26,065 bases of DNA, taken from positions 1 to 26,065 of the IMG/VR virus record IMGVR_UViG_3300010389_000112. One strand, 5' to 3'. Positions 1 to 26,065 of this stretch are shown here, piece after piece; position 1 is the first letter of the stretch, and each line of letters opens with the position of its first letter. A program made the position numbers and the translations under genes. Under the pieces are notes generated by a model, which searched no databases, was not told where the DNA came from, and saw only the letters and a program-made list of their open reading frames with translations. The DNA is from a virus.

Positions 1-2179
1 AAGCAGCACCACCCGATCCATTATCAACATTGACTTTGAGGCCGGTGTAAGTACCACCAGCGCTGGTCCAGTCCAGCTCTACATTCAGATCTGCGGTGCC
101 TGCCAGTTGTCCGGCGTTGTTGTACTGGATGTTGCCGGTTGCTCCAGAGACAAGGCCGACGGTGCCGGTTTGGTCTGGGAAGCTGATCGTGCGGTTGGCG
201 GTTGGGGTGACCGATTGAATGGTCGTAGAGAAAGCGCCGCCGCTGTCGAGGTTTAGATCACCCTTGACTGTTGCAGTGCCAGGGTCGGCATTGCTAACAC
301 CAACCGTCAGCTCGTTAGTGGTCTTGTTAAACGTCAGACCAGAATCAGCACCAAACCCGCCATCATCGTTGAATTGGATCTGGCCGTTCGAGCCAGCAAC
401 TGGGTCGATGCTGGTGCCGGTAAGGACCAGCGTGCCGGTGCTGGCCTGAATGCGGCCGACGTAGGCCACAATCTGGCGATAGCCGCTTGTTGGCTTGACG
501 TTGGTCAGGCCGCCACCATTGGCAACATAAAGCTCATCATTGGTGCTCCAACCCGGAGTGGCCGTGTCGAAATTGAAGATCTCGCCAATGATTGTGCCAT
601 TGCCCTCACCATTGACTGCCAGCGTTGTTTCAACCAAGCCCACTGCCGGGCCCTTGGCCGGGTCGGAGCTGTCGGCGGCTTGAATCTCTACGCGATCACT
701 AGCGCCAACCGTGCCGGTGATATAGAACGGCGTGCCTGCATCAAGCTGCACCGTGTCGGTGTTCTTGACGTGGATGTAGACGCTGCCTGCCAGATTGCCG
801 TGGATGTGCTCGGCAGTAAGCAGCGTGTTAACGGTGAGGTTATTCAGCGTCAACGGGTCAGGCACTGACACGTCATCAGCAACCCACCCTGTGCCGTCGT
901 AGGTCAGGATCTGGCCAGTTGTTGGCGGCGTTGTAGTTAAATCAACGTCACCCAGCTGATCAAGGCTGTAATCGCCTTCAGTGGCGACGACTGCGCCGGT
1001 CCGGCCAAACACCGAATCAACAGCGTTGACTTCGGCGCCAGACTGAATGCCATCAAGCTTTGTCTTGTCGCCAGGCGCCATCAGACCGGCGTTGGTCCCT
1101 GTGACCAGCGGGACCGTGGCATCGGTGCCGGTGCTAGAGGTTACGGTGCCATCCGTTGCGCTGGCGGTGTAACCAAGGTCAGTGGCATCACCCGGAGGTG
1201 CCGCCCATGTGCCATCAGCGCGAAGATAGTTGGCTGTGCCGCCACCACTTCCACCGACCAGGCCGGCATTGGTTGAAGTAAAGGCAGGGATCGTTGCGTC
1301 GGTGCCCGCTGTATTGGTTACGGTGCCACTGCTGGCGGCCGCTGTGTAACCAAGGTCAACGCTACTGACGACGCTGCCGGGCACCCAGTTGGCGCCGTCA
1401 TACTTCAAGAATTGCCCGCTAGTTGGCGCGGAGCTTGTCAGATCAACATCGCCAAGCTGGTCTAGGTCGTAATCGCCTTCTGTCGCGACAACTGCGCCAG
1501 TGCGACCAAAGACCGAATCAACAGGTGCCGATGCTGTTGTGTGCGGCACCCAGTTGGTGCCGTCATAGCTCAACACTTGACCGCTGCTTGGCGGTGTCGT
1601 CGTTAGGTCTACGTCACCAAGTTCTCCTAGGTCATAATCGCCGTCAGTCGCGACTACAGCGCCAGTACGGCCAAAAACAGAATCAACAGCATTGACCTCT
1701 GCACCGGCTTGGACGCCATCAAGCTTTGTCTTGTCGCCGGGCGAGAGGAGGCCAGCATCTGCAGCAGTGACAAGCGGGATGGTCGCATCGAGGCCAGCGC
1801 TATTGGTCACCGTGCCATCAGTGGCCGATGCGGTGTAACCAAGATCAACGCTGCTTACGACATCACCCGGCACCCAGTTGGCACCGTCGTAAGCCAAAAA
1901 TTGGCCATTGGTCGGCGCTGTGGTGCTTAGGTCAACATCGCCAAGCTCGCCTAGGTCATAGTCGCCATTTGCGGCCACGACGGCACCAGTGCGGCCAAAG
2001 ACCGAATCAACCGGCGCATCAGTCGGCGCCAGTTTGACGACAGCGCCTGCACTGTTCTTGGTATAGAGCGCAGTGCTGTTCGCGTTGATGTTTAGCGCGA
2101 TTTCGCCGTTTACCAGATCCGATGGCTGCGGCGCTTGGTCCTGGACGGAACTGTGTTTATGTCGGACGTTGAGCGACAT
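1..2179 (-). CDS. Tail fibre / receptor-binding protein, modular repeats (C-terminus cut by window edge)
   Basis: The frame is open from an ATG at 2179 to the left window edge, giving at least 726 residues with no stop. A strong ribosome site (GGGAGG, 7 nt before the ATG) fixes the start. The N-terminus (residues about 1-52) contains LVNGEIALNINANSTALYTK, a pattern common at the virion-anchoring end of phage fibres. Residues about 57-434 are alternating repeats: four copies of a module with VDSVFGRTGAVVA and LGDVDL motifs, and three copies of a module with LGYTASATDGTVT and DKTKLDG motifs. GGTANYLRADGTWAAP, another fibre motif, lies between them. The later part is beta-rich and Gly/Thr/Asn-rich. 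It is the last gene of the tail block, 44 nt after the previous stop. Role inferred: host recognition at the tail tip. The C-terminal receptor-binding or chaperone domain is outside the window. Confidence 0.85.
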   Translation of the reverse strand, partial: MSLNVRHKHSSVQDQAPQPSDLVNGEIALNINANSTALYTKNSAGAVVKLAPTDAPVDSVFGRTGAVVAANGDYDLGELGDVDLSTTAPTNGQFLAYDGANWVPGDVVSSVDLGYTASATDGTVTNSAGLDATIPLVTAADAGLLSPGDKTKLDGVQAGAEVNAVDSVFGRTGAVVATDGDYDLGELGDVDLTTTPPSSGQVLSYDGTNWVPHTTASAPVDSVFGRTGAVVATEGDYDLDQLGDVDLTSSAPTSGQFLKYDGANWVPGSVVSSVDLGYTAAASSGTVTNTAGTDATIPAFTSTNAGLVGGSGGGTANYLRADGTWAAPPGDATDLGYTASATDGTVTSSTGTDATVPLVTGTNAGLMAPGDKTKLDGIQSGAEVNAVDSVFGRTGAVVATEGDYSLDQLGDVDLTTTPPTTGQILTYDGTGWVADDVSVPDPLTLNNLTVNTLLTAEHIHGNLAGSVYIHVKNTDTVQLDAGTPFYITGTVGASDRVEIQAADSSDPAKGPAVGLVETTLAVNGEGNGTIIGEIFNFDTATPGWSTNDELYVANGGGLTNVKPTSGYRQIVAYVGRIQASTGTLVLTGTSIDPVAGSNGQIQFNDDGGFGADSGLTFNKTTNELTVGVSNADPGTATVKGDLNLDSGGAFSTTIQSVTPTANRTISFPDQTGTVGLVSGATGNIQYNNAGQLAGTADLNVELDWTSAGGTYTGLKVNVDNGSGGAA
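878..2011 (-). repeat. Tandem modular repeats inside the tail fibre gene
   Basis: Four copies of an approximately 145-nt module (1865-2011, 1544-1687, 1376-1522, 878-1021) encode VDSVFGRTGAVVA, then GDYxL, LGDVDL and YDGTxWV. Three copies of a second module (about 1688-1864, 1256-1375 and 1022-1189) encode LGYTAxAxxGTVT, DATIP and, in two of them, PGDKTKLDGxQxGAEVNA. The copies are similar in DNA as well as in protein, all in the same frame. Such repeats can change in number by recombination and can be mis-assembled from short reads. Confidence 0.85.
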
Positions 2180-22377: not shown

Positions 22378-22697
22378 TCAAAAACCCTGGCTATGCGTGC
22401 CGCGGTATTTATGCAACCGAGCGCCACATGAGGCTGATTGCTCTTGCGTGCTTCTTTTTGAAGAGTTGCGAGCTGTGAAAGCAGTTCCGCTACAAAGGTT
22501 TTGCGGTCAATCTCCCAGTCTTCTTTAAGCAGCTCGCGTGCCTTGGAAATGTAGCTGTCAATCTGGCGAGGTTGGAGCCCCCATTCATTTGCGCCGTATT
22601 GCACGCATTCAGATCGTGTGGCGCCATTGGCCAGCAGTCGAGCAATGCGGTTAACCCGCATCTCGATTTTGACAGAGGTGGAGCCTTTGGCGGGCAT
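22374..22697 (-). CDS. terS: Terminase small subunit
   Basis: 107 residues, start TAATG overlapping the stop of the Mom-like gene. The first half looks like a helix-turn-helix: VNRIARLLANGATRSECVQY and GLQPRQIDSYISKARELLKE. The second half is helical (EIDRKTFVAELLSQLATLQK, NQPHVALGCINTAARIARVF), the usual oligomerisation part of small terminases. It is coupled to the large subunit by a 4-nt overlap. It should bind the packaging-start site and load the large subunit. The family is variable, so the call rests on the helix-turn-helix pattern, size and position. Confidence 0.8.
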   Translation of the reverse strand: MPAKGSTSVKIEMRVNRIARLLANGATRSECVQYGANEWGLQPRQIDSYISKARELLKEDWEIDRKTFVAELLSQLATLQKEARKSNQPHVALGCINTAARIARVFE

Positions 22698-23449
22698 TAG
22701 GTAATTACCTCGCCTTTTGAATTGGAGCGCGCGGGTCGGTTATGCTCCGCCGCCTTACCGGTGGTCCCGGCAGTTGCCTGCTTCGCGCGCGTACGCTTAC
22801 CACGATACATGGTTGCTCCCAATTCGTCTATGCGAGAAAAGGGGAGGATGGGAACGGTGAGGCGATGTTTAGCAGTTGGGTCTAAAAAGTAGATGTAGCG
22901 AAGCTGAAAGCCTTCAAGGGGTTTGGCTCCGCGTTTTTTCCATTGCGAAGCGTTGCCACCCATTCGTTGCGGGTTGACGTTGAGGGTTAGGTCGGTAACG
23001 ATTTTGCCGTTTGGCAGTTTAAGGATGGTTTTGTTTTGGCGGATGCCGGTGAGTAAAAAACCACTGGCTCGATAGATAGTGCCATCACCGCATTGGGAGC
23101 CATCAGCAAAAGAAAGCACCCACTGAATGTGGGGGTAGTGCTTTTTGATTAGACGAAAAGCGATAGAAAGAGCGCGGCTTTCGCTGTTGCGCGGGAGGGT
23201 TTCGCTAAACGCCATGCGGTTAAGTTCTAAGAACCCGTTCCATGGTGTGTCTTCGACAAGGGGAAGGACTTTTCGTTTGTCGATAGGGGAGCCAAACTGC
23301 ATTGCCCCCTCAAGGCGACCATTTAGAAAAACGCCTAGATGAAGGGAGGATGACGCGGCAGTAGAGCCAGAGTAATGGATGCGTTTTACGAGAGTGCCCG
23401 CATCTTTGGCAGAAATAGGCGCGACCTTGATGTCTTTAGCTGAGGCCAT
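22697..23449 (-). CDS. mom: Mom-family DNA adenine modification protein
   Basis: 250 residues. ATG at 23449 is chosen because GGGGGAG lies five bases upstream; GTG at 23455 is a second choice. The body is a GNAT-like fold: VKRIHYSGSTAASSSLHLGV, FLNGRLEGAMQFGSP, FLELNRMAFSETLPRNSESR, then ALSIAFRLIKKHYPHIQWVL and SFADGSQCGDGTIYRASGF (residues about 113-131). The last is the signature of Mu Mom and relatives ('ADxxxGHxGTIYxAxxF'). The C-terminal 30 residues are basic and probably disordered. In Mu, Mom converts adenines to a methylcarbamoyl-type form that blocks host restriction. It follows a ParB-like gene (14-nt overlap) and precedes terminase. No methyltransferase is present in the window. 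Confidence 0.85.
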   Translation of the reverse strand: MASAKDIKVAPISAKDAGTLVKRIHYSGSTAASSSLHLGVFLNGRLEGAMQFGSPIDKRKVLPLVEDTPWNGFLELNRMAFSETLPRNSESRALSIAFRLIKKHYPHIQWVLSFADGSQCGDGTIYRASGFLLTGIRQNKTILKLPNGKIVTDLTLNVNPQRMGGNASQWKKRGAKPLEGFQLRYIYFLDPTAKHRLTVPILPFSRIDELGATMYRGKRTRAKQATAGTTGKAAEHNRPARSNSKGEVIT

Positions 23450-24065
23450 GATCACTCCCCCAGCTTAGAAACAGCTCAGCGATGCGAGCGATGGCATTGC
23501 CATTGCTGTTTTCGTTGCCGGTATCAACGAATGGACCCATTTCTTTGGCTTTTTCGATGGCTTCCTTAATGATCTCAGCCTGAAGATCATGAACAGTAAA
23601 AGTCATTTGCTGGACAGGTTCCCGATCTCCTGAGTTGAGATCTGGCATGTCGTCAAGCGGGGAAACATCGTCTCCGATTAAGTCGGCAAGATCATCAGCA
23701 TCAAACCAGGGCGCTAGATCATGCTCATCTGACAATCGAGTGAGCATGGCTTGGTCCCATTCGGAGAGGTCAGCGGTGCGGTTGTCTGCGAGTGCGAGGC
23801 CTACTTTGTCGTCTTCGGAGAGCCCGCTGCGTTTGATGGCGATGATTTCGTCGCCTTCGGTTTCGATGATTCGAACGTTTTTGATGCCTGCTGCTTTGGC
23901 CCCCTCGATGGTGCCGTTGCCAGCGAGGATGCGGTTGTCTTCGTCGATGACGATGGAGCGCGCGGCACCGTAGCGTTGCAGGGACTCTTTGATGAGTTCT
24001 GCAGAGCGATCGGTACGACGCCGCGCGTTTTTATGATCACTGATTAGCGAGTTAATCGAGGTCAC
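23436..24065 (-). CDS. ParB/Srx-like nuclease-domain protein
   Basis: 209 residues from a GTG at 24065. The N-terminal domain (about 1-95) has HKNARRRTDRSAELIKESLQ, RYGAARSIVIDEDNRILAGN and GTIEGAKAAGIKNVRIIETE, the ParB/sulfiredoxin fold seen in phage genes beside DNA modification enzymes. Next comes KVGLALADNRTADLSEWD, also typical. The C-terminal half is acidic and ends in AELFLSWGSDHG, overlapping the Mom start. The usual Srx-type motif (GxxR or GNG/GH) is partly present as AGNGT, so nuclease or ATPase activity is not certain. In related phages this protein adjoins methyltransferase or Mom genes; a role in modification or in DNA binding is inferred. Confidence 0.8.
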   Translation of the reverse strand: MTSINSLISDHKNARRRTDRSAELIKESLQRYGAARSIVIDEDNRILAGNGTIEGAKAAGIKNVRIIETEGDEIIAIKRSGLSEDDKVGLALADNRTADLSEWDQAMLTRLSDEHDLAPWFDADDLADLIGDDVSPLDDMPDLNSGDREPVQQMTFTVHDLQAEIIKEAIEKAKEMGPFVDTGNENSNGNAIARIAELFLSWGSDHGLS

Positions 24066-24094
24066 AGACCAGGGCTAACGATATTTGGTTGAGC

Positions 24095-24280
24095 TTAGTG
24101 TAAGGATTGCCAAAGGCCGGTGTAGGTGCAGCGAAGTGGCTTGTTGGCGTCTTTGCGCCCTTGGAGGCGATAAAGCCATTCGAGTGCCAGAACGCGGTTG
24201 TTCATTGCTTCGATGTCTTCAGCACCGGGTTTGGCTGGTGTGGTGCGGAGATTTTTGACGGCTTGCTGAGGTGTTGTCAT
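24095..24280 (-). CDS. Small phage protein with YTGL motif
   Basis: 61 residues from ATG at 24280, overlapping the upstream gene end by 62 nt. The C-terminal half, NNRVLALEWLYRLQGRKDAN then RCTYTGLWQSLH, matches a small protein pattern common in phages (LYxxxGR...HxTYTGL). An internal ATG at 24205 would give a 36-residue protein containing just that motif and would avoid the overlap. The function of this family is unknown to me. It sits before the ParB/Mom genes in the same direction. Confidence 0.55.
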   Translation of the reverse strand: MTTPQQAVKNLRTTPAKPGAEDIEAMNNRVLALEWLYRLQGRKDANKPLRCTYTGLWQSLH

Positions 24281-24512
24281 TGGAGGCGCGTAGTTGGTTG
24301 AGTTTAGGTTCTACGAGGTGAAAGGAGGAGACGAAACCGCAGTTGCCGTCTAGGCAGACGCGGATGCAGTCGCCTTCTAGTTGGGTGATGGTTGGCTCTG
24401 CTGTCACGCGGTTGTAGGCGCGTTGTATGCGGTCATGGTGGGCGTCGATAGCACAGGAGGCTAGGAAATCGACGTAATCAGAACACCATGTATCAAACGG
24501 AAGCGTTTTCAT
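24219..24512 (-). CDS. Hypothetical protein
   Basis: 97 residues, ATG at 24512. It begins MKTLPFDTWCSDYVDFLASC with helical character, then EPTITQLEGDCIRVCLDGNC, a strand-rich part with four cysteines overall in the first 60 residues. The C-terminus is polar and low in complexity. It overlaps the upstream gene by 20 nt and the next by 62 nt. I cannot assign a family. Coding is supported by the overlaps and frame continuity in a dense operon. Confidence 0.5.
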   Translation of the reverse strand: MKTLPFDTWCSDYVDFLASCAIDAHHDRIQRAYNRVTAEPTITQLEGDCIRVCLDGNCGFVSSFHLVEPKLNQLRASNDNTSASRQKSPHHTSQTRC

Positions 24513-24792
24513 TGAGGGCGATGACGACAGCGGCGGTGATGGCTTCGAGTTGAGTTCTGGGGATGCCTGCTGAGGCGCGTGCAGCGGCTTCTACAGCATC
24601 AGCAAAGACGTTGGCACCAACGGGGAGTTTGAAGGGGTTTGCGGAGGTGCGTAGGGATGCCTGAATGGCGGAGCGTGCAAAGTCGCTCATTGTGGTGCCT
24701 TGATCTAGGCAGAAATGCTTAAAGGGCAGGACTTCTTCTTGGGGAAGCGAGACCTTGATGATGGTGTGACCTGCGCGGATTTTGCTGGACAT
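24493..24792 (-). CDS. Ribbon-helix-helix-like protein
   Basis: 99 residues from ATG at 24792, which overlaps the upstream stop by one base (TGATG). The N-terminus fits an Arc/MetJ-type fold: a strand (HTIIKVSLP), helix EEVLPFKHFCLDQ, then TTMSDFARSAIQASL. The second half is Ala-rich and helical (FADAVEAAARASAGIPRTQL, EAITAAVVIALNE). It could regulate early or late phage genes or act in plasmid-like DNA binding. The fold call is by pattern only. It is in the operon that leads to the modification and packaging genes. Confidence 0.6.
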   Translation of the reverse strand: MSSKIRAGHTIIKVSLPQEEVLPFKHFCLDQGTTMSDFARSAIQASLRTSANPFKLPVGANVFADAVEAAARASAGIPRTQLEAITAAVVIALNENASV

Positions 24793-25151
24793 CAAAAGTC
24801 GAGTGAGTCTGGATCGAATTGTGCGAAGTCGTTTGAGATCAGGGTGACGCCATCAGGCTCAGGCGGCTGATCAAGGGTGACGGGGAGGTCTGGGGAGTTT
24901 GCTGGTGTGGTGCCTGGCGGTGGTGTGAAGTCACGCGGTTCGCTGCGTTGGACGGTTTCAGGTTGCTCGGGGTCACGGAGTGGGTTGCGGTATTCGTGCT
25001 GCTTGTAGTTGGGGTGATGAACGCGGAAGCGCTTGGCATTTTCACGCCAGCCATATGAGGGCGTGTCTAGGTCTTCTAGTGTCCAGTGACCGGCTTCGAT
25101 ACCACGGCGGAGTAGAAGGCGCGTTTCTGTGAGGTCAAAAGCTTGTTCCAT
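24792..25151 (-). CDS. Hypothetical protein
   Basis: 119 residues, ATG at 25151. The N-terminal part (RLLLRRGIEAGHWTLEDLDT then WRENAKRFRVHHPNYKQHEY) looks folded and repeats in small phage proteins I have seen, without a known role. From residue 60 it is Pro/Asp/Glu-rich and probably disordered (PPPGTTPANSPDLPVTLDQP). It overlaps the upstream gene by 17 nt and the downstream gene by one base. No function assigned. Confidence 0.55.
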   Translation of the reverse strand: MEQAFDLTETRLLLRRGIEAGHWTLEDLDTPSYGWRENAKRFRVHHPNYKQHEYRNPLRDPEQPETVQRSEPRDFTPPPGTTPANSPDLPVTLDQPPEPDGVTLISNDFAQFDPDSLDF

Positions 25152-25554
25152 AAAAAACCTTTACGGGCTTAACGGGTTGGATCTCTCCGTATTTTTCGCG
25201 GAGCATTCGGACTGTTAGCAAGGCTGAGCGTCGAGAGGAGTCAAGCTTTTTCAGCTGAAGTCTTAGGTTTTCTATTTCAAGTTCAGCACGCTTCAAATCG
25301 TTCTTAACTTTGCGCAATTCATAGCGAACGCCTTTAGGGCCTTTGGAGCGGTAATTTGATTGAAACCAGCAAGCACGGATGAGTTTAGTTAAGCAATCGA
25401 CTTCGATGGTTAGCTCTTCTGCGTCTTCCTCCGAGAGTCCGGGTTCATTTAGCAATGCACGTTTGACGCCACGCAAGGCAACAAGGTCTTGCTCCATGGC
25501 CAAAGCAGCTTCAGTGTCAAGAAGGCTGATTTCAGTGAAAGTAGGAATTTCCAT
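25135..25554 (-). CDS. Hypothetical coiled-coil protein
   Basis: 139 residues, ATG at 25554 overlapping the upstream TGA by one base. It is nearly all helical: AMEQDLVALRGVKRALLNEP, then a long basic/leucine-rich coiled coil (ELRKVKNDLKRAELEIENLR, LQLKKLDSSRRSALLTVRML). No membrane segment or catalytic motif. Translational coupling to the putative replication gene suggests a partner protein, for example a loader or accessory factor, but this is inference only. Confidence 0.55.
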   Translation of the reverse strand: MEIPTFTEISLLDTEAALAMEQDLVALRGVKRALLNEPGLSEEDAEELTIEVDCLTKLIRACWFQSNYRSKGPKGVRYELRKVKNDLKRAELEIENLRLQLKKLDSSRRSALLTVRMLREKYGEIQPVKPVKVFYGTSF

Positions 25555-26065
25555 CAGAGCATGTCCTTGAGGATTGGGTTGGTTGTGGGGCCATCGTCAA
25601 AGCCCTTGGCAGCGGTGAAGACGCGGCTAGCAGGGTGACGCGGCTCCGGCTGGCTAGGGGCGCCTTGCTGGGCCTTGCCGAGGCCAAAGCGCTCGTAGTT
25701 GGCCAGCGTGATATTGACCCATCCGTAGCCCCGCGCAAGGCCTATCTGATCGCGCAGGACCTTCTCGCCGTAACGATCAAGAATCGCCCTGCAGCCGTTA
25801 ATCAGCGTTTTGGCCGCGGCCTCTGATTTCTTGCCGCTTTTGTCTTCGCGCCAGTAGGCCAACAGGTCAGGCTTGAAGGATTGGAGATCGTCTGGAACCG
25901 AAAAAACAAATCTCTTTCGTTGGTCGCCCGAAACGACTTGTTTCGGAACTCTTCTCTTAGAGAAATTTTCTTTTTCTTCTTCGTTAGAAGAAGAAGAAGA
26001 AGGTTTCTCGTAGGCTGTTTCTTCGGCTGTTGTTAACTCAAAGCCGGAGGCCCCAACCCCCCTAC
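25554..26065 (-). CDS. Putative replication protein, C-terminal part (5' end outside window)
   Basis: The frame is open from the right window edge to TGA at 25554, at least 169 residues. No start codon lies in frame before a TTG at 25862, so the gene begins outside. Residues seen first are an acidic, Ser/Glu-rich linker (KPSSSSSNEEEKENFSKRRV), then RKRFVFSVPDDLQSFKPDLL and AYWREDKSGKKSEAAAKTLI, NGCRAILDRYGEKVLRDQIG, LARGYGWVNITLANYERFG. The pattern 'aromatic-x-Trp ... GKKs.AA..' recalls the C-terminal regions of some phage replication initiators, but this is weak evidence. The linker DNA contains three inverted repeats (described separately). Confidence 0.55.
   Translation of the reverse strand, partial: RGVGASGFELTTAEETAYEKPSSSSSNEEEKENFSKRRVPKQVVSGDQRKRFVFSVPDDLQSFKPDLLAYWREDKSGKKSEAAAKTLINGCRAILDRYGEKVLRDQIGLARGYGWVNITLANYERFGLGKAQQGAPSQPEPRHPASRVFTAAKGFDDGPTTNPILKDML
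25928..25995. repeat. Three tandem inverted repeats in an AT-rich stretch
   Basis: Repeat 1: CCGAAAC (25928-25934), 5-nt loop, GTTTCGG (25940-25946). Repeat 2: TTCTCT (25952-25957), 1-nt centre, AGAGAA (25959-25964). Repeat 3: TTCTTCTTC (25974-25982), GTTA loop, GAAGAAGAA (25987-25995). All are perfect in the arms. They lie in the linker part of a putative replication gene. Repeat 3 is partly explained by the Ser and Glu codon runs. Confidence 0.75.

Follow-up and report, generated by a model that had tools for sequence, protein, structure and literature searches.

Origins of replication lying within a gene are textbook knowledge in phage lambda. According to PMC7466680, the lambda origin consists of iterons (binding sites) and an AT-rich tract located mid-gene, inside the coding sequence of the initiator O. 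A siphovirus origin, oriL of SPP1, is described in PMC6316719 as combining direct repeats with an unwinding element rich in AT, both placed inside the initiator gene 38. As far as titles and abstract openings reveal, no in-gene origin in cyanosiphoviruses and no cyanophage iterons are described in the open-access literature.

Herein, we consider a linear IMG/VR record of 26,065 bases, taken in its entirety and referred to as the window. It is a fragment of a tailed phage with the main genes, including the terminase, on the minus strand, and its last gene carries a hairpin-rich stretch that is probably part of a candidate start site for copying of the virus genome. Like the lambdoid in-gene origin, this stretch comprises an AT-rich tract; unlike lambda, it displays hairpins and no iterons in its visible part, and the domain core encoded next to it is very diverged. 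No neighbour similar to lambda P was recognised. The layout of lambda is matched by winged-helix relatives of the gene, whereas its RHH (ribbon-helix-helix-like) relatives have another DNA-binding domain. The likeness of the window to SPP1 oriL is one of layout; the window differs in having hairpins and no repeat array.

The truncated gene and its product

The gene and the conserved parts of its product are located as follows:

25554..26063, minus strand: putative O-like replication initiator gene, frame open to the contig end, 169 residues visible
25707..25898, minus strand: core of the O-like C-terminal domain (VPDDL...GWVNI), from the alignment of relatives and hhalign
25557..25640, minus strand: conserved C-terminal tail HPASRVFTAxxGFDDxPTTNPxLxxxx, from the alignment of relatives

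The 5' end of the gene is truncated by the contig end, with the N-terminal domain lying off the contig, and our search found no contig extending the window past this point. The closest annotated homologue of the visible protein is the full-length CPKG_00028 of cyanophage KBS-S-2A, annotated as hypothetical; the host of this phage is Synechococcus WH7803 (PMC3751600). Residues 55-169 of the window protein align with CPKG_00028 at 34.8% identity (tblastn, E 1e-8), and both proteins have the same C-terminal tail. CPKG_00028 matches phrog_678, 'replication initiation O-like', with an E-value of 1.2e-17. It differs from what is visible in the window in having an HTH_36-type N-terminus (E 0.001, below the Pfam cut-off) and a direct-repeat linker, where no inverted repeat was reported. 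In KBS-S-2A, the gene is part of a small series of genes that precedes the terminase, and it adjoins a divergent recombination block (RusA-like, Sak-like and exonuclease genes).

Aligned to 20 relatives by hhalign, the window protein scored 98.5% (E 2.7e-15) when the tail was included and 59% (E 9.3e-5) for the domain core without it, so that much of the former score is due to the conserved tail. In the tree, the C-terminal domain of the window sits far from all relatives, on an end branch of 2.0 and with unsure placement. The predicted structure contains helices at residues 58-71 and 81-112 (pLDDT about 72-84), and Foldseek returned no match at E<=0.001 and no solved relative for either of the two structure models. 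Given the tail-driven score, the 59% core and the long branch, we regard the window protein as a remote member of the O-like group, assigned to it by homology of the C-terminal domain and not proven to be an O protein. The first-pass annotation of this DNA, which took the gene for a putative replication gene, is supported in part, by a domain homologous to O-like initiators, but not by the window protein's own profile matches: no PHROG family was hit up to E 0.1, hence no phrog_678, and no Pfam family was above the cut-off. Outside viruses, two scans of cellular genomes gave 41 and 61 pattern-matching stretches with no confirmed relative among them, and none was found on plasmids with the protein of contig L046 as the only query.

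Inverted repeats in the linker

Upstream of the region coding for the C-terminal domain, the following elements are found:

25928..25946, minus strand: perfect 19-bp hyphenated palindrome, CCGAAAC-GACTT-GTTTCGG in plus-strand letters, 7-bp arms, 5-nt spacer
25952..25964, minus strand: short inverted repeat, TTCTC-TTA-GAGAA in plus-strand letters
25960..26009, minus strand: main hairpin, 23-nt arms (25960-25982 and 25987-26009) paired at 20/23 positions, 4-nt loop
26008..26031, minus strand: two 12-nt direct repeats, 83% alike; no iteron array
26024..26046, minus strand: weak palindrome CGGCT...AGCCG upstream of the main hairpin, 5-bp arms, 13-nt spacer, pairing predicted by folding

Three perfect inverted repeats had been noticed at 25928-25995, along with a TTTCG word at 25915-25919, and all of these are present. 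The third repeat, TTCTTCTTC-GTTA-GAAGAAGAA at 25974-25995 (plus strand, 9-bp arms, 4-nt loop), is the inner part of the larger, imperfect main hairpin, the arms of which are polypyrimidine/polypurine and correspond to the codons Ser5-Asn-Glu3. Since the repeat at 25952-25964 and the outer stem of the main hairpin have TTTCTC in common, the two represent alternative pairings and cannot form together. The description of this stretch as AT-rich and linker-coding also held: codons 21-40 have a GC content of 0.33-0.37 and a GC3 of 4/20, against 0.59 in the genes of the contig; the five serines in the run are without exception encoded by TCT, which makes up 16% of the serine codons used; and the predicted structure is of low confidence here, apparently disordered.

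Such a composition brings forward the explanation that a low-complexity Ser/Glu linker written in TCT and GAA codons yields TTC/GAA hairpins as a by-product, the palindrome being a chance occurrence. The first-pass annotation had raised this origin for the third repeat, and synonymous recoding disfavours it: the 20/23 pairing of the main hairpin was reached in 0/500 recodings with the codon usage of the contig and in 0/500 with matched low GC3. The palindrome at 25928-25946 is unusual on its own (p 0.004-0.007 by synonymous recoding) and occurs once in the window, up to two mismatches being allowed in the search, while the repeat at 25952-25964 is not significant alone (p 0.07-0.13). Counting perfect, disjoint repeats with arms of at least 5 and loops of 3-8, three in the 81-nt stretch were obtained in 0.26% of recodings that followed the codon usage of the contig, in 2.3% of within-gene codon permutations and in 0.08% of 1,300 sliding 81-nt windows across the contig, figures that are optimistic because the stretch was chosen after being seen. 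The by-product explanation draws some support from the fact that, when codons were permuted only within the stretch, 27.6% of the permutations kept three repeats. Folding of the whole 144-nt stretch as DNA gave z -3.3 when dinucleotide shuffles served as the reference. Relative to synonymous recodings, its energy was at z -1.9 with plain codon usage (11/300 as low) and at z -3.4 with matched GC3 (0/300 as low). Overall, we consider it unlikely that the hairpins merely follow from the protein, and data from relatives, given below, bear on this as well.

Winged-helix relatives

Scans of viral contigs revealed full-length relatives with two types of head, winged-helix or RHH-like, preceding the O-like C-terminal domain. 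Among the aligned homologues, phrog_678 was matched at E<=0.001 by 22 of 31 members. Recoding of 28 winged-helix genes demonstrated linker repeats in excess of what the protein requires in 27 (p<0.01), the exception being L006 (p 0.06). In the six genes inspected, these repeats form families of 3-5 copies, spaced mostly by 23-25 nt, and many of them are hyphenated palindromes. After the last iteron, L011, L012, L015 and L016 also have ACAAGAACCC-type repeats spaced by 14-15 nt, which resemble the short repeats of unwinding elements.

The proposal of a lambda-like layout is sustained in one respect, as relatives hold DNA-level repeats or hairpins in the linker, and not in another, as no lambda-type iterons are visible in the window. 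Cumulative GC skew, suggested earlier as a check, lends no support: in KBS-S-2A, the peak falls at 14.2 kb and not at the initiator gene (16.3-17.1 kb, with the linker at 16.8 kb), an ambiguous outcome.

RHH-class relatives

The second head type is recognisable, albeit faintly, as RHH. Pfam RHH_5 was found in 2/16 of these N-termini (best E 0.0016), models of RHH_1, VapB and HicB-like proteins were matched weakly, once each, and the best solved match of the head profile was NikR (E 0.075). The predicted structure of the L003 protein shows two RHH helices with moderate confidence. The genes of this class (L003, L042, L046, L094 and others) share the O-like C-terminal domain with the window, theirs being much less diverged, and 13 of 24 members, which have no winged helix, matched phrog_678 at E<=0.1 (best 5.7e-5).

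Directly 3' of the RHH head, these genes have an element that starts with CTTGACA and, after a 7-nt gap, continues with T..(G/T)CTG and the first arm of a hairpin; GAGC and the loop lie between this arm and its partner, and a pyrimidine run closes the element. The two arms form hairpin 1. In a comparison of 14 distinct arm pairs, for which the position of each 3' arm had been chosen for best complementarity, Watson-Crick pairing was seen in 99 of 112 cells; none of 20,000 shuffles scored as high, and two or more pair types occur at 7/8 positions. Across 28 distinct elements (copies identical in the first 150 nt were collapsed, and one regex hit lacking the motif, in the window's own locus L001, was dropped), at least seven pairs were formed by an element's own arms in 25/28, compared with 17% when arms were taken from other elements. 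Considered individually, 10/28 elements reached p<=0.05 by recoding and 18/28 did not.

Stems that covary are also what would be expected of RNA, and the main rival to an origin is that the hairpins act in mRNA, where they could serve in attenuation, in control of translation or in regulation of the gene by its own RHH or winged-helix product. This possibility is consistent with all elements found being in frame within the gene and with the folding of the 144-nt stretch as RNA (z -3.5), much like that as DNA. Nevertheless, hairpin 1 includes no G-T pairs among the 14 distinct arm pairs, and G-U is usually tolerated in RNA stems; in the winged-helix relatives, the same slot is occupied by DNA iterons, a double-strand feature. 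These two observations weaken the case for RNA. Rfam also gave no family at gathering score in the loci of 10 relatives, and in the window it returned only sub-threshold hits of microRNA type, which we judged to be chance. We thus find a role in mRNA rather doubtful.

Downstream of hairpin 1, RHH-class genes, like the window, write their Ser/Glu linker as a polypyrimidine/polypurine hairpin. Linker GC3 in 31 distinct genes is 0.27, against 0.66 before and 0.71 after it, and the longest perfect linker hairpin beats 95% of recodings in 18 of the 31. In the other 13 genes, L003 among them, recoding revealed no significant second hairpin, a point in favour of the by-product explanation. Against it stand perfect arms of 11-17 bp with p<=0.002 in many relatives, such as the L094/L099/L102 group, and a paired change in L109, which has TAAGTC...GACTTA for the TAATTC...GAATTA of its kin.

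Two further sequence features were noted in these genes. Alternating GC runs, e.g., ACGCGCGTGCGCG, lie about 20-60 nt after the second hairpin in L042, L046, L094, L099 and others; in many RHH genes such runs code for basic residues, and they are possibly Z-prone DNA. At the start of the region coding for the C-terminal domain, L070, L074, L075, L080, L081, L084, L085 and L087 have a perfect 8-bp palindrome, GGGGATGA-(2 nt)-TCATCCCC.

In L128 and L144, the RHH head and the element precede a different C-terminal domain, from which it would follow that head and element travel together (for L140 and L141, viewed across just 45 residues on each flank of the element, the C-terminal domain was left unclassed). 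The same shuffling of N- and C-terminal modules could suggest that the hairpins are the mark of a recombination joint or a mobile palindrome inserted in frame. Against this, in a wider pattern scan, the 18 newly inspected loci (L151, being L042's contig, was left out) comprised five true elements, at the same place in RHH-type genes, and 13 chance matches, and neither unrelated genes nor intergenic DNA yielded a copy of the element. The idea of a mobile repeat was rejected on these grounds, and the explanation as a whole, joint included, appears highly improbable.

Place of the window among its relatives

L003 and L004 are sister contigs of the window, 93.6% identical to it just downstream of the gene, over 23700-25124, and both carry the RHH type. 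In protein as well as in hairpin design, the window linker PSSSSSNEEEKENF is similar to SSSSSTKEENF of L003 and to SSSSIEEENKTF of L046, although the second hairpin of L003 is only 6 bp long (p 0.22). Conservation of the repeats in relatives is partial: the main hairpin has a counterpart at the same place in the RHH class, with a TTC/GAA, low-GC3 linker in common, whereas none was seen for the palindrome at 25928-25946 or the repeat at 25952-25964. Unlike RHH-class genes, the window does not show the CTTGACA...GAGC hairpin 1; by reading, it is absent from the visible 62 nt upstream of the pyrimidine run (26002-26063), as is an iteron array. The window may represent a third variety of initiator gene, or its hairpin 1 may be so long in the loop that part of it lies beyond the contig; such a loop would need to exceed 40 nt, longer than any seen.

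A 62-bp island (25552-25613) is 91.9% identical to L003:2188-2249 and is present in both L003 and L004. It codes for the tail GFDDGPTTNPILKDM in the window initiator and also, in L003, in another protein of 153 residues, and would correspond either to a joint left by recombination or to an interaction motif that the two C-termini share; of the joint explanation discussed above, it is a second point in favour.

Elsewhere in the window, a ParB-like gene (23436-24065, minus strand) precedes a gene for DNA modification of the Mom family (22697-23455, minus strand; Pfam Mom, E 1.6e-53). In L003 and L004, the same ParB-like start runs into a 410-residue protein that, by reading, looks like a DNA methyltransferase, which suggests that a swap of modification genes has taken place. 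At 2-2179 (minus strand), repeated VDSVFGRTGAVVA..GDYDLGELGDVDL modules are found in a structural, probably tail-fibre, protein.

A candidate in-gene origin

Our preferred reading, to which we give a probability of roughly 55%, is that 25928-26009, with a possible continuation beyond the contig, forms the AT-rich side, where strands open, of a candidate in-gene origin in the linker of an O-like gene. Its basis is the C-terminal homology, the DNA-level selection on linkers of relatives and the hairpin of the window; the RHH type of the sister contigs and the recombination genes next to the KBS-S-2A homologue also speak for it. In the corresponding scenario, the off-contig N-terminal domain, RHH-like or winged-helix, would bind to sites lying within its own gene, in the linker. 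The AT-rich, hairpin-forming tract beside these sites would then melt more readily, and the C-terminal domain would bring helicase and primase to the strands laid bare, which are perhaps folded into hairpins, so that replication would start at the linker. A resemblance to rolling-circle nicking might be seen as well, and plays no part in this scenario.

It is tempting to suppose, though only tentatively, that phage initiators, cyanophage ones perhaps, swapped an O-like head with winged helix and iterons for an RHH-like head with its cognate in-gene hairpin origin, this cassette being mobile between unrelated C-terminal domains. The cassette origin would then consist of the conserved CTTGACA...GAGC motif with the covarying hairpin, followed by the AT-rich polypyrimidine/polypurine hairpin, and the window would be a diverged member in which only the second hairpin is visible. 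The open-access literature, again at the level of titles and abstract openings, describes no RHH-headed phage initiator with an in-gene origin. If the reading as an in-gene origin is right, both origin and initiator would be located in dozens of uncultured phages, and the RHH head with a hairpin origin would represent a second solution beside winged helices and iterons. The covarying hairpin would, moreover, offer a direct handle on whether a DNA strand must fold at the origin.
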